Assembly (NCBI GenBank): GCA_021157815.1
Contig: JAGGVT010000047.1
Location: 1 to 12,963 of the forward strand
Source: a bacterium
GTDB lineage: Bacteria > JAJVIF01 > JAGGVT01
Length of the DNA: 12,963 nt
Direction of reading: 5' to 3'
Under the pieces are notes generated by a model that had not been told where the DNA came from, made no database searches, and saw nothing but the letters and a program-made list of their open reading frames with translations. Position 1 is the stretch's first letter, and each line of letters starts with the position of its first letter. Shown piece by piece: positions 1,305-10,637 of the stretch. The position numbers and the translations under genes are program-made.

Positions 1305-3323
1305 ATGGCGGAAAAGAAAATTATTGGACTGGATTTCACCAACAACGAGATCCGAATGGTCCAGGTTTCAGGTAAAGGGAAAAACGTCATGCTGGAACGT
1401 TATGCTGTAGGAGCAATTCCAGCGGGTGTTTTCCAGGGAGGACGGGTTGTTGAAACCGCCAGATTCGCAGATGTTGTCAAGGAACTGTATCGCACCCATA
1501 AATTTACATCCAAAAAATGCATTGTTGGCGTTTCAGGGAAATATGGCGTTACGCGTCTGATTACACTGCCCAAGATGAGTGCAGCGCAGACAAGAGATGC
1601 CATATCACTGCAACTTAACCAATATGTTCCGTTCCCACCGGGCGATACGCTTTTTGATTACAAAGTGCTTCGGGAAATCAAGGATGATGAAACGTTAAGC
1701 CAGGAAATTCTTCTGGTTGCCACTCGACGAAGCACCATGCAGCCTATTCTAAACGCGCTGAAAAAAGCGGGTTTGAATGTTGCCGGCATTAAAATCACAA
1801 CCCTCACCGGGTTTACCCTTTTTGAAGAGCAATATTTTGATGCTGATCAGGCCGTTGCTTTTGTGGATGTTCGCGATGCTGTAACCGACATCGCGTTCAT
1901 TTCGGAAAACTTCTTCCGCCTTTCAAGATCAATCGAATTTGGAAATACTCTTGTCGCTGATAAAATCAGGCAGAAGATTGGTGGAACTTATGAGGATGTC
2001 GAGGATTACCTCGCTCTGAATAAGATTGATCTCCAGGAAACATATCAACCCACTATGACCGTTGATGACGACGAAGGAGAAGAGGTTGACAGCGATGATG
2101 TTTCTCCACTGGAGCGTCAGGCGAAAGCCAAGGGTGAAACCTCGGAGAAGGCAGTTCGGGATTCGGTAATAAGGATTCTGGGCGCGTTTGTCAACGAGTT
2201 GATGCGTTCGATTCGATACTTTGAATCACAGCAGAAACGACGATCAAGAGTCGGCAAAATCGTATTATTTGGCAATATCGGATATCTTGAAAATCTGAGA
2301 GATTATATAGCCGAACAAACCGGCCTGGATACTGTTGTTATCAAAAGCGCGCCTGATTCAATTGAAATGGGGCTTGCCGGAATTGACCTTCAGATGTTTG
2401 AAGGCAATGAGGCAAAAGGGATTGTCCCTATCTCACTTGCTTATGAGGGTGTCAGGTCAAAGAGAATTGAACTTAATCTTGTTCCACGTGAAACCGTGGT
2501 TCGAAAAAAAGCTTTCAGCGCGATTAAATATGTAATTGTTGGATATATTGTTATGTTGGCATGGATGGCTATCTGGTATATAGGAAAGGATCAGGAATCT
2601 CAGGATGTCAAGGCGCATGTTCAGGAATGGGACAGAAAAATAAATCAGATTCGCCCGTTCTACGATGAAACTGAAGCTGTAAAGTCTGATATCAACGATA
2701 TCGCTCCCAAAGTGCAGGGTGTTCTCACCATTGTCCAGAAACAGGTGGCGTGGATTCCAATCCTTGAGGAAATTGGGCTTGTGCAGATTCCAGCCACATG
2801 GATAAATGAGTTTGCATTTGATGCGAATGGAGGTGCGGTTACGATTCATGGCTTTGGTTTTAAAACATCCAACGTACAGCGATTCTGCGCGATTCTTTTC
2901 TATTCAAATGTGTTCGAAATTGGTGATGTTGATGTGAGTGCCAGCTCTACGTCATCATCCACAAGTGAAGATTCGATGAGCGGTGGAGGAGGCACGTCAT
3001 CCTCCGGCGCTATGGATATGCCAATGCCAATTCCGGACATGATGGGCGGAACAGGAGATAGAATTCCTGATGACTGGTCAGCGGACAACTATCGCAATAA
3101 CAACATCAGAAATGCCGGCAGTCCGCGAGGGTCCTGGGGAGCGGAACCGATGTATGGTTTGCCTGATCTTCCACGAGGCGCGAGATCAATTGAGAGTTTC
3201 TGGGAGGGCAGAACAATTATCTGGCCGATTGGCTATGAGTTTGAATTCGAACTTACAGTTGTTCCGCAGGTCATTGATACAAGCAGTGCTGCGTTCGAAG
3301 GGTTAAGCAACCTTTCCGTTTAA
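1305..3323 (+). CDS. PilM-PilN fusion protein (GspL-like architecture), type IV pilus/T2SS inner-membrane platform
   Basis: The 672-residue protein joins two components that are separate in most type IV pilus systems. Residues 1-380 resemble PilM, the cytoplasmic actin-fold protein: IIGLDFTNNE near the start, QYVPFP at 106-111, DVRDAVTDI at 188-196, and ELMRSIRYFESQ at 298-309. Residues 388-396 read IELNLVPRE, which matches the conserved N-terminal PilN motif (INLLPxR) that docks on PilM. A transmembrane helix (about 408-426), a helical stretch (429-480) and a PilN-like periplasmic domain (about 481-656) follow. That domain is interrupted by a roughly 82-residue low-complexity insert (546-627). 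An acidic insert lies at 254-265. Separate PilM and PilN total about 550 residues. GspL has the same fused layout. Start: ATG with GAGGTG eight bases upstream. It would couple the cytoplasmic motor side to the PilO/PilP-like proteins. Confidence 0.9.
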   Translation: MAEKKIIGLDFTNNEIRMVQVSGKGKNVMLERYAVGAIPAGVFQGGRVVETARFADVVKELYRTHKFTSKKCIVGVSGKYGVTRLITLPKMSAAQTRDAISLQLNQYVPFPPGDTLFDYKVLREIKDDETLSQEILLVATRRSTMQPILNALKKAGLNVAGIKITTLTGFTLFEEQYFDADQAVAFVDVRDAVTDIAFISENFFRLSRSIEFGNTLVADKIRQKIGGTYEDVEDYLALNKIDLQETYQPTMTVDDDEGEEVDSDDVSPLERQAKAKGETSEKAVRDSVIRILGAFVNELMRSIRYFESQQKRRSRVGKIVLFGNIGYLENLRDYIAEQTGLDTVVIKSAPDSIEMGLAGIDLQMFEGNEAKGIVPISLAYEGVRSKRIELNLVPRETVVRKKAFSAIKYVIVGYIVMLAWMAIWYIGKDQESQDVKAHVQEWDRKINQIRPFYDETEAVKSDINDIAPKVQGVLTIVQKQVAWIPILEEIGLVQIPATWINEFAFDANGGAVTIHGFGFKTSNVQRFCAILFYSNVFEIGDVDVSASSTSSSTSEDSMSGGGGTSSSGAMDMPMPIPDMMGGTGDRIPDDWSADNYRNNNIRNAGSPRGSWGAEPMYGLPDLPRGARSIESFWEGRTIIWPIGYEFEFELTVVPQVIDTSSAAFEGLSNLSV

Positions 3324-3409: not shown

Positions 3410-4414
3410 ATGGACAAGATGTCAAAATCCGGTCAAGATGTAACAATTGCGATTGTTATCACAGTGATCGTATTCCTTGGATCCGCTGCGGCTTTTCACC
3501 AGTATTTTTATATCACCAAACTTGCGGAAATTGACAGTTTGAAAGCTCAGCGAACCTCCAAAGAACAAACCTTTAATAACTATAAAAAAGTGATTGAGGA
3601 AAAACCAAATTTTGAAGAACAGCTGGTTGCTCTTCATGCAACCTGGGATAATAACAAACACTATTTCGTAAATGGAATGGTTGACTGGGATGATATCGAG
3701 GAAATTCGCCAGACCCAGTTCACAATCTTCCAGCTTTATGAAAAGGTTATAGAGGCCGCGGTGTTTGCCGGTATTGAGGTTGAACATCCGGTTGAGCAGG
3801 AATTTGCAATTATGATCACAGAGGAACTTCAATTCCATCCTGATGATGAACCATTTGATTTTCCTCCACATTTCCTTTTCCTTGTGAACAACTGGTCATT
3901 TATACCATCGGAGAGATTTCCTGATGCAGATTCTGAAAAGGGCGCGGCTGATGTCGGCGGAAGTTCGTCAGGCTCATCTGGTGGTTTTGGATTTGGTACC
4001 GGAGGCGGTTCGTCAGCAAGCGCTGGCGGAGCCGTTAAAAATCTTTTCAGCGCGCATGATTTTACCGTTGAATTCGAGGCGACATACGATCAACTTAAAA
4101 AATTCATTGAGATAATGCAGGACCTTGAAGGCGATGAGGCATGGGTTATTTCGGTGCACTGCTTTGAAACAAGTGGCGACCCGATATTCTTCGGATTCCC
4201 GGCAACTCTTTCAGGTGATATTGTTTATACGGATGTTAAGATTCCGATGGAAATGTTCTGTACCGCTTATGAGCTTTATGAGCCGGGCGCGACCAACATT
4301 CCACCCAATCTGCCCGGAGAAACAAGCTGCAGCCCGTCAGGAGGCGGTGGCGGCGGTGGTAGCAGCAGCGGTGGCGGCGGAATTGGCGGCGGTGGCGGTG
4401 CTGGATTTAGCTAA
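3410..4414 (+). CDS. PilO-like inner-membrane alignment-complex protein
   Basis: This 334-residue bitopic protein is the likely partner of the preceding PilN-like domain. A short cytoplasmic start is followed by one transmembrane helix (about 11-34) and a helical, probably coiled-coil segment (36-75). A periplasmic region then contains a PilO-like alpha/beta fold around 215-285 (FTVEFEATYDQLKKFIEIMQ, then DIVYTDVKIPMEMF). Sequence similarity to PilO is weak, so the call rests on topology, length and gene order. Two Gly/Ser-rich stretches are unusual: residues 182-208 between coiled coil and globular domain, and a C-terminal tail (309-334) of almost only Gly and Ser. The start has a good ribosome site (AAGGAG, ending ten bases before ATG). 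A second ATG three codons later is possible. GspM is the type II equivalent. Confidence 0.75.
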   Translation: MDKMSKSGQDVTIAIVITVIVFLGSAAAFHQYFYITKLAEIDSLKAQRTSKEQTFNNYKKVIEEKPNFEEQLVALHATWDNNKHYFVNGMVDWDDIEEIRQTQFTIFQLYEKVIEAAVFAGIEVEHPVEQEFAIMITEELQFHPDDEPFDFPPHFLFLVNNWSFIPSERFPDADSEKGAADVGGSSSGSSGGFGFGTGGGSSASAGGAVKNLFSAHDFTVEFEATYDQLKKFIEIMQDLEGDEAWVISVHCFETSGDPIFFGFPATLSGDIVYTDVKIPMEMFCTAYELYEPGATNIPPNLPGETSCSPSGGGGGGGSSSGGGGIGGGGGAGFS

Positions 4415-4496: not shown

Positions 4497-5375
4497 ATGA
4501 ATGACAATGGTAAACTGAATCTGGGATTAATTCTAATCGGACTTATATCCCTTACAATAATATCACTTGGTATTTTCACCGTGGCATCACGCGCTCAGGA
4601 TGGCGCAATACCAAAAGCGCCGATTCTACAGGCTGATCCGGATACTCCGCCGGAAAGTCCGCCTGGTGATGAACCGGTTGACATCACCGATACAAGTGAG
4701 CAGGCTGATGATAATGAGGAAGGGAACATTCCTCCGCCAGCCGATGTGGAAGAGACTGAAGAAACCTATATAAGCCACAGGGACAGCACACCACGTGAAC
4801 TGACAGAGCTTGGCATTTACTACAAGGATGATGAGGGAAGCCCTGTCGCTGAGCGAACGAAACTGATTAATAATGTGAATCTTCCATCCGCGATGATGAG
4901 GAAAAATGATCAGGCTCGCTCTTTCCAGACAATGAACACAGAAGGGCGTTTTGACCCGTTGTTCGTTACAGACATGATTCCGGAAGGACTCAGGCCGGAA
5001 CTTGAGGGTGAGGGTATCAGCGGCGCTGTCGATTCAGGTCTTATTGATCAACTAATCCAGACTAAAATCAGCACTTTCTTCAAGTATTTGCCTATTCAGA
5101 TAATCGGAACAATGCAAAATGGGCCCTATAAGAGCGCTTTGATTAGCATTCGGACTCTGGGCTACTATAAAATCCTGAAAGAGGGACAGGGTGACAGGAT
5201 TGTGGCTTTCGGAGGAGATGAAGGTTACTATGTTGTCGGAATGACAGTTACCAAAATTTCAGAGGACCATGTAACAATTAATATTTCTGCAACACTGATA
5301 GACTATATTTACAATCGAGCGCTGTCAACCACACCAACCGTTACCAGGCATTTCTACGTTCGCAGATATAATTAG
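4497..5375 (+). CDS. PilP/GspC-like periplasmic linker protein
   Basis: This 292-residue protein has one N-terminal hydrophobic helix (about 9-30), then a Pro- and acid-rich linker (36-100). A C-terminal domain (about 196-264) has the beta-rich pattern of PilP/GspC homology regions: IQIIGTMQNGPYKSALISI, then YYKILKEGQGD, then YYVVGMTVTKISEDHVTINI. Upstream, GRFDPLF at 150-156 recalls the GRRDPF motif that precedes this domain in PilP. PilP is normally a lipoprotein, but no Cys follows the hydrophobic segment here, so it is either anchored by its helix as GspC is, or cleaved near SRAQ (residues 31-34). In the family this domain binds the secretin, so it would bridge the PilN/PilO-like proteins to the upstream secretin. 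Ribosome site CAGGAG is well placed. Last gene of the module. Confidence 0.75.
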   Translation: MNDNGKLNLGLILIGLISLTIISLGIFTVASRAQDGAIPKAPILQADPDTPPESPPGDEPVDITDTSEQADDNEEGNIPPPADVEETEETYISHRDSTPRELTELGIYYKDDEGSPVAERTKLINNVNLPSAMMRKNDQARSFQTMNTEGRFDPLFVTDMIPEGLRPELEGEGISGAVDSGLIDQLIQTKISTFFKYLPIQIIGTMQNGPYKSALISIRTLGYYKILKEGQGDRIVAFGGDEGYYVVGMTVTKISEDHVTINISATLIDYIYNRALSTTPTVTRHFYVRRYN

Positions 5376-9124: not shown

Positions 9125-9317
9125 TCAATGAAATTGATATACCATCAACCCGAGCTGCGATAAATAACCCCACGCACCGGGTTCAGATTATATTTCTGAT
9201 AACCATGTTATCCTCATTACTAATTCTAACCGATTTCAAATGGTATTTCAAAAGAAAGGTAATTTGCTTTGTGAAGATTAGCAAATGAGCGAGGACCAGG
9301 AAATTCTGGAGAGGTTG
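9125..9317. other. Intergenic region between tRNA-Ala and MITE copy B
   Basis: No gene can be supported. Small frames starting here run into the repeat element and are artefacts of it. The region should hold the tRNA promoter on the minus strand, but I see no convincing pair of boxes. Confidence 0.4.
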
Positions 9318-9555
9318 AAAATAGCAGAGGGTTTAAGAGCGTGTCGGGAAAGGTATCGCAAACAAGTTCTCCCCCACCCCAGCCCTCCCCGCGAGCGGGG
9401 AGGGAGCATATTGTCTTTTCCCTTCGCAAGTGTATGGATCGGATATATTGTTTGCAAACGCAGAAAATATTTCCCCCCGCTCGCGGGGGGATTAAGGGGG
9501 GGATGAGATATAAAAACAACCTTTACCGACAGGCTCTTAAACCCTCTGCTATTTT
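9318..9555 (+). mobile_element. MITE-like element, copy B (complete)
   Basis: The element is 238 bp with terminal inverted repeats of 37 bp at 35/37 identity (9318-9354 and 9519-9555), starting AAAATAGCAGAGGGTTTAAG. The outer AAAATA/TATTTT leaves open a TA target duplication with the repeat proper starting at GCAGAGGG. Inside are two perfect GC-rich palindromes: arms CCCTCCCCGC/GCGGGGAGGG (9384-9405) and CCCCCCGC/GCGGGGGG (9473-9490). No transposase is encoded. Copy A at 5554-5773 is in the opposite orientation. Confidence 0.88.
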
Positions 9556-9572
9556 TATTCTGCTCTTTCATT

Positions 9573-10637
9573 ATGATAAAATACTCATTCATGGATGCCT
9601 CTGACGCAGATATGGTTTCCAAAACGCTGATGGATGTCCCTGACAGCCGCGACACATTGTTTGCGCGCTGGATTCTGTATGCGATTTTGATTCTGGCAGC
9701 GTATATCTCGGTCAGTTACGCTTTCAATCTGATGATCTCTCAACCGCTTTCAGATACTCGTCTTGGAATTCATAAGATGGTAATCACAGGAATAGCGCCA
9801 AAGCCTGTTCAATACAGGATTCTGACATATTACATCGTCGAGGGAGCTCATCGTATAACCGGTATGGCAATCTGGCGTCTCGATTTGGTTTTGCGGTTTA
9901 TCTTCACATCTCTGGCGCTGATATTTATGTTCAAATTCCTGAGGCGCTGGTTCGATTTCGCTGTCAGCGCGATAGGACCGTTGATAATACTAGCGGTGCT
10001 CCCTGTTACATATATAGATTACATCCACCAGCCGCATGACATTCCAAACCTGTTTTTCACAATTCTGGCGCTGGGATTCATTCGAGATAAAAAAGAGGCG
10101 TGGATGATTCTGCTGATTCCGATTGCAATGCTTAACCGTGAATCGTTTATTTTCGTCATATGGGCGTGGTTTTTCTATAACTATGACCGCCTGCCATTCA
10201 AACTATTATTAACTGAATTCACTCTTCTTGCTTTGATTGCGCTTGCAATCTATTTTACGCTGCCTTATTACTATGGGCCACGCCTGAATCATGTCGATAT
10301 GATTCAGCTTAAAAACAACCTGAATCCTGGAATGATGTTTAAATGGTTATCTCGGCTTGTGGCGTTTGTAGGGCCTCTGGTGGTGGCGTCATTCGTGCGG
10401 TTCAAATCAAAACCGCTGTTCCTGCGTCGCTCAATGGGATATGTCGCTGTTTTCATGATTGCTAATTTCATCGTGGGGAAGTATCAGGAAACCCGATTAT
10501 TTCTACCGATTCTGCCGGTTTTGATTCCGCTCGGGCTGGCTGCGATATTCCCGGTTTCCCCGGCGAAGGGACGCCGGGCTACGATTAGTGATGAGGACAG
10601 TTCTCATCGGAATACAACATCCGGGGAAATTGTGTAG
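9573..10637 (+). CDS. Polytopic membrane protein, possible GT-C-type glycosyltransferase
   Basis: The 354-residue product has about eight to ten hydrophobic segments from residue 30 to 328. I do not recognise a named family with certainty. The motifs HQPHDIPNLFF (152-162), MLNRES (186-191) and GKYQETRLFLPILP (302-315) have conserved-looking polar or charged residues at membrane edges, as in polyprenyl-sugar-dependent GT-C membrane proteins. The start is uncertain: no ribosome site precedes ATG 9573 or later ATGs at 9591, 9612 and 9630, and MITE copy B ends 17 bases upstream. After the last hydrophobic segment, residues 327-337 are encoded inside a palindromic repeat unit, and the TAG stop lies inside the next unit. 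The true C-terminus may therefore have been altered by repeat insertion. About 137 bases separate it from the next gene. Confidence 0.6.
   Translation: MIKYSFMDASDADMVSKTLMDVPDSRDTLFARWILYAILILAAYISVSYAFNLMISQPLSDTRLGIHKMVITGIAPKPVQYRILTYYIVEGAHRITGMAIWRLDLVLRFIFTSLALIFMFKFLRRWFDFAVSAIGPLIILAVLPVTYIDYIHQPHDIPNLFFTILALGFIRDKKEAWMILLIPIAMLNRESFIFVIWAWFFYNYDRLPFKLLLTEFTLLALIALAIYFTLPYYYGPRLNHVDMIQLKNNLNPGMMFKWLSRLVAFVGPLVVASFVRFKSKPLFLRRSMGYVAVFMIANFIVGKYQETRLFLPILPVLIPLGLAAIFPVSPAKGRRATISDEDSSHRNTTSGEIV

Follow-up and report, generated by a model that had tools for sequence, protein, structure and literature searches.

The stretch of DNA analysed here (the window, 12,963 nucleotides) begins with the C-terminal part of a secretin gene and continues on the same strand with a gene for a protein that joins a PilM-like and a PilN-like half, followed by genes for a PilO/GspM-like protein and, more weakly assigned, a PilP/GspC-like protein (Table 1). 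PilM and PilN are usually two separate proteins of the pilus machine; here they are encoded by a single unbroken ORF of 672 codons.

Table 1. Features of the window, and of two related loci where the PilM and PilN genes are adjacent in one frame
Feature	Position	Strand	Evidence or remark
Secretin (PilQ/GspD-type), C-terminal part, 5' end cut by contig end	2..1033	+	PF00263 E 2e-33
pilMN fusion gene	1305..3323	+	672 aa; ORF, domain models, profile comparisons
PilM (actin-like) domain, residues 1-380	1305..2444	+	PF11104, TIGR01175; hhalign 100% to 20 free-standing PilMs
PilN N-terminal docking motif IELNLVPRE, residues 388-396	2466..2492	+	aligns with free-standing PilN from residue 2; ~7-residue linker before
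Predicted transmembrane segment, residues ~409-427	2529..2585	+	hydropathy maximum 1.86 over 19 residues
PilN-like periplasmic domain, residues ~428-545	2586..2939	+	PilN profile matches, window and relatives
Gly/Ser/Met/Pro-rich low-complexity stretch and C-terminal tail, residues ~546-672	2940..3320	+	sequence; poorly conserved
PilO/GspM-like bitopic protein	3410..4414	+	position after pilMN; G002 orthologue T2SSM E 0.011; own profile
PilP/GspC-like periplasmic protein, weak assignment	4497..5375	+	position; profile finds equivalent in L084, L085, L087
In-frame pilM/pilN separated by TAG	L086 7690-9078 and 6751-7683 (G085); L059 (G355)

The N-terminal half is PilM-like, as the first-pass annotation had proposed, and exceeds the curated cut-offs of both PilM models, PF11104 (PilM_2; E 5e-31, 108 bits for a cut-off of 27) and TIGR01175 (144.5 bits for a cut-off of 133). 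Compared by hhalign with 20 free-standing PilMs, the N-terminal halves of the fused proteins scored 100%, and a profile of three fused proteins searched against the PDB matched Myxococcus PilM at E 3e-28, GspL chains not being among the matches. The sequence motifs lie where they had been read, QYVPFP at residues 106-111, ELMRSIRYFESQ at 298-309 and IELNLVPRE at 388-396.

For the C-terminal half, Pfam PilN (PF05137) stays under its cut-off of 22.8 bits in the window protein (14.1 bits, E 0.05-0.14), but the assignment is supported by the equivalent region of the fused relative L083, which reaches 41.7 bits, above the same cut-off, and by hhalign, which aligned the C halves of six fused proteins with 17 free-standing PilNs at 99.4% (E 4e-21). 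Moreover, positions 387-527 of the three-protein profile matched Myxococcus PilN in the PDB (3jc8_Na, residues 3-142, E 9e-5). This half thus belongs with PilN and not with an unrelated family. T2SSL (PF05134) gave no match at E <= 1 in the window protein and none in the four genomes of the phylum present in our collection (G000-G003, the window's own included). Together with hydropathy, these comparisons bear out the succession described by the first-pass annotation, in which the motif is followed by a hydrophobic segment and then by a periplasmic domain, as in PilN.

The stretch from residue 385 matches the free-standing PilNs of about 20 other genomes, whose genes lie directly 3' of pilM. 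These matches begin mostly at PilN residue 2, which aligns with residue 388 of the fused protein. By this alignment the boundary is exact: PilM ends at about residue 381, some seven residues follow, and PilN starts at its own second residue. Both domains match those of type IVa pili (M. xanthus 3jc8, T. thermophilus 2ych) over the conserved parts, with the motif in the same place; type IVa pili, however, have separate pilM and pilN genes, whereas the window protein is one polypeptide with a longer Gly/Ser-rich tail. Conservation measured over nine residues between 381 and 672 peaks at 388-396, where five of nine residues are invariant in three species; in the remaining C half the figure is 38 of 276. 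A motif that had lost its docking role would not be expected to stay so conserved, and the docking peptide thus seems to be still in use. Two AlphaFold2 models built from three-row alignments had mean pLDDT values of 41 and 46, too low to place the motif relative to the PilM groove.

The frame is open throughout residues 370-390, with neither stop nor frameshift, and no in-frame ATG, GTG or TTG occurs in the window from 20 codons 5' of the motif to 4 codons inside it. All four phylum genomes carry the fused gene, at full length in G001 and G002 (45-47% identity); in G003 it is broken by contig ends only, being split across two contigs, and the junction itself is present. An assembly or frameshift artefact was rejected on these grounds, the junction being kept in four genomes and the fused gene complete in two. 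When genome contigs were scanned with the single protein as query, no match was obtained, and with an alignment only G002 and G003 were found. Around the junction 71 of 109 codons differ between G002 and G003, 46 synonymously and 25 non-synonymously; in the stretch that begins 20 codons ahead of the motif start and ends 8 codons past it, the corresponding numbers are 14 and 5. To judge from these counts, the junction codons are under purifying selection.

The secretin gene is complete in G001 and G002 (962-1012 aa). In other genomes, the profile of the PilO/GspM-like protein picks up the gene following pilN, and the PilP/GspC-like protein had no Pfam match. No ATPase or PilC gene was found in the operon stretches read. 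In G001, the genes 5' of the secretin encode a prepilin peptidase and GspH-like and GspJ-like proteins, and both G001 (L014 22-4668, the frame extending upstream) and G002 (L015 1895-6712) have in this position a giant (~1,600 aa) GspK/PilX-like minor pseudopilin. That of G002 carries inserted TolB/PD40-type beta-propeller repeats and a sub-threshold T2SSK motif. By their resemblances, these pilin-like genes fit minor pilins of T4P or T2SS alike. The propeller-bearing pseudopilin might act as an adhesin at the tip, and is perhaps more out of the ordinary than the fusion itself.

Further downstream, several distant genomes of the window's clade have a NuoN/antiporter-like gene next after the pilP-like one, in L015 (14561-16303), L084 (3964-5568), L086 (2854-4797) and L087 (2542-4518), called by Pfam for L084 and L086 and by look for L015 and L087; the window lacks it and has gcvT on the opposite strand instead. 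Between the tRNA-Ala and the next gene of the window, at 9226-9655, overlapping Pro/Gly-rich ORFs lie on both strands, and this segment has the look of an intergenic G+C-rich repeat, not of genes.

Each of the four phylum genomes also has a second, free-standing pilM (~400 aa). In the window's genome it lies inside an ordinary pilM-pilN-pilO-pilP-pilQ run, after a row of pilin-like genes; pilM and the secretin of this run were named by profile and the other genes by position and look. The row comprises about 12 pilin-like ORFs (L018 1090-8519, G000:C80) and lies immediately 5' of this operon.

The first-pass annotation had called for a survey of relatives for fused and split genes. Among 385 genomes spread over Bacteria, both states were found: inspection showed PilM continuous with a PilN-like half in eleven further genomes, from nine GTDB families, and split pairs in others. 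Against the PilN set, the fusion groups tested separately gave hhalign values of 89-99%; E. coli GspM, GspL, HofO and GspK served as negative controls and HofN as positive control. Some candidates (among them L092, L093, L097, L099, L088 and L101) had frames that extended upstream or crossed stops, and were counted as split. Searching with the GspL domain revealed a second population of proteins of 500-670 aa, with matches to PilM profiles and, for several of them, to PilN profiles as well.

On a first tree, built from 47 PilM domains, seven changes are needed to account for the fused state, five to seven in the bootstraps, and at least four are forced by strong branches; E. coli HofM formed a very long branch there and was dropped from the second tree. 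A single clade for all sampled fused proteins is rejected (AU p = 6e-7). Read from these trees, the PilM-PilN fusion arose several times in bacteria. The window's clade is made of the four phylum genomes, three fused proteins of families f19 and f158, and family f85, and in all loci read from it the secretin gene is 5' of pilM. Family f85 has both states: G226 is fused, and G085 and G355 have pilM and pilN in one frame with a TAG between. In G085 the junction reads LATEAL*VMSKQLKVFNLLPRE (asterisk, stop), the pilN ATG being preceded by just the stop and one codon. To go by their sequences, such pairs are what the pre-fusion step would look like; alternatively, they may be the product of fission. 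We propose that the fusion would have arisen within the PilM lineage and independently of the GspL of T2SS; the simplest route would be that the stop codon separating two neighbouring genes in one frame was lost.

Taken from sequence comparison, the locus most probably (roughly 85%) encodes a natural PilM-PilN fusion in a T4P-type inner-membrane platform, within an operon secretin - PilMN - PilO - PilP. The way this protein would work can be proposed from the T4P machine (reviewed in PMC4471445). The PilM domain would lie under the inner membrane as a cytoplasmic ring, touching the motor ATPase and the platform protein, and the LNLxP motif would still occupy a PilM groove, either that of its own chain (in cis) or that of the neighbouring protomer in the ring. 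The membrane helix and the periplasmic domain would pair with PilO and reach the secretin through PilP. Being one chain, the protein would lock PilM and PilN in a 1:1 ratio, with no free exchange or departure of PilM.

Natural fusion of these two proteins is already described, and the window protein adds another example. PilM and PilN are fused in C. difficile (PMC6916266), and pilM and pilN are fused in most T4P clusters of Campylobacterota (PMC11870540). The same two proteins are joined in these cases, which belong to other lineages and are likened here by description only; the gene order in Campylobacterota is pilMNOPQ, whereas the operon of the window has the secretin gene first. The Akkermansia MUL2 locus (amuc_1099-1102) has also been described, with Amuc_1101 termed a PilM protein (PMC13174399). 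The Amuc_1101 (MUL2B) family, PilM-like, is probably a PilM-PilN fusion too, as judged from the sequence of one close relative, L100, which scores 618 bits over the whole Amuc_1101 model (NF045709) and is itself fused, with a PilN-like C-terminal half.

Several other explanations were weighed. The first-pass annotation had noted a GspL layout and suggested a form intermediate between T4P and T2SS platforms. The layout is real: as in GspL/PulL of T2SS, a cytoplasmic actin-like domain precedes a single membrane helix, with a periplasmic domain beyond it, and the genes upstream in G001 and G002 resemble GspH, GspJ and a giant GspK. The PilM half, however, kept the pilus-type look attributed to it: in a tree including GspL and the GspL-like fused proteins of 500-600 aa, the window's clade nests within ordinary PilMs (SH-aLRT 91), apart from both. 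Neither the T2SSL model nor E. coli GspL gives a detectable sequence match, hhalign to the latter (one sequence) reaching 0.3% for the N half and 0.1% for the C half, where PilM and PilN gave 100% and 99.4%. No match to T2SSG (PF08334), the domain of the major pseudopilin GspG, was found in any of the four phylum genomes, which likewise have no T2SSL, and the single origin of the sampled fusions is rejected. A true evolutionary intermediate between the T4P platform (PilM and PilN) and the T2SS platform (GspL) is thus highly improbable, and that part of the first-pass annotation was not sustained, although there may be deep homology with GspL. Membership of the locus in a T2SS was itself rejected, GspG and GspL matches being lacking in the four genomes. 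The related idea of a divergent, lineage-specific T2SS, in which the fused protein would act as GspL and the operon would secrete proteins via a short pseudopilus, we consider unlikely. It would account for a secretin, H/J/K-type minor pseudopilins and a GspM-like protein in one stretch of G001 and G002, and the same genome has a second operon, pilMNOPQ, which is clearly of T4P type, has many pilins and would leave the fused copy free for another task; yet the same lack of GspG and GspL domains speaks against it, T4aP also has minor pilins of the H/I/J/K type, and GspE, GspF and GspG were not found in the operon stretches read.

The direction of change could also be turned around: fusion would then be the original state, from which PilM and PilN were split later, and the window protein and others like it would be secondary re-fusions. 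This reading comes from the PilM/GspL tree, where most deep branches are fused (500-670 aa) with GspL as outgroup; support for the deep forks there is weak and some of the joins involve long branches, and we find this reading very doubtful. As to function, the platform might serve a pilus that binds or takes up macromolecules, like Akkermansia MUL2. The NF045709 profile indeed aligns across the junction in G001 and G002, and the relative of Amuc_1101 mentioned above is fused, but the window protein scores 106 bits, far under the equivalog cut-off of 650, the gene order differs, and the protein sits on another branch of the PilM tree. A role of this kind is accordingly quite unlikely.

The fusion in a T4P-type platform adds a phylum-wide case to the natural PilM-PilN fusions. 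It also indicates that PilM and PilN can give rise to the GspL layout time and again, and the layout by itself is therefore no evidence of T2SS ancestry. The fused copy and its in-frame split relatives in family f85 provide a natural test of whether PilM must leave PilN during the pilus cycle: in a machine with the fused copy only, PilM should be unable to detach from PilN.
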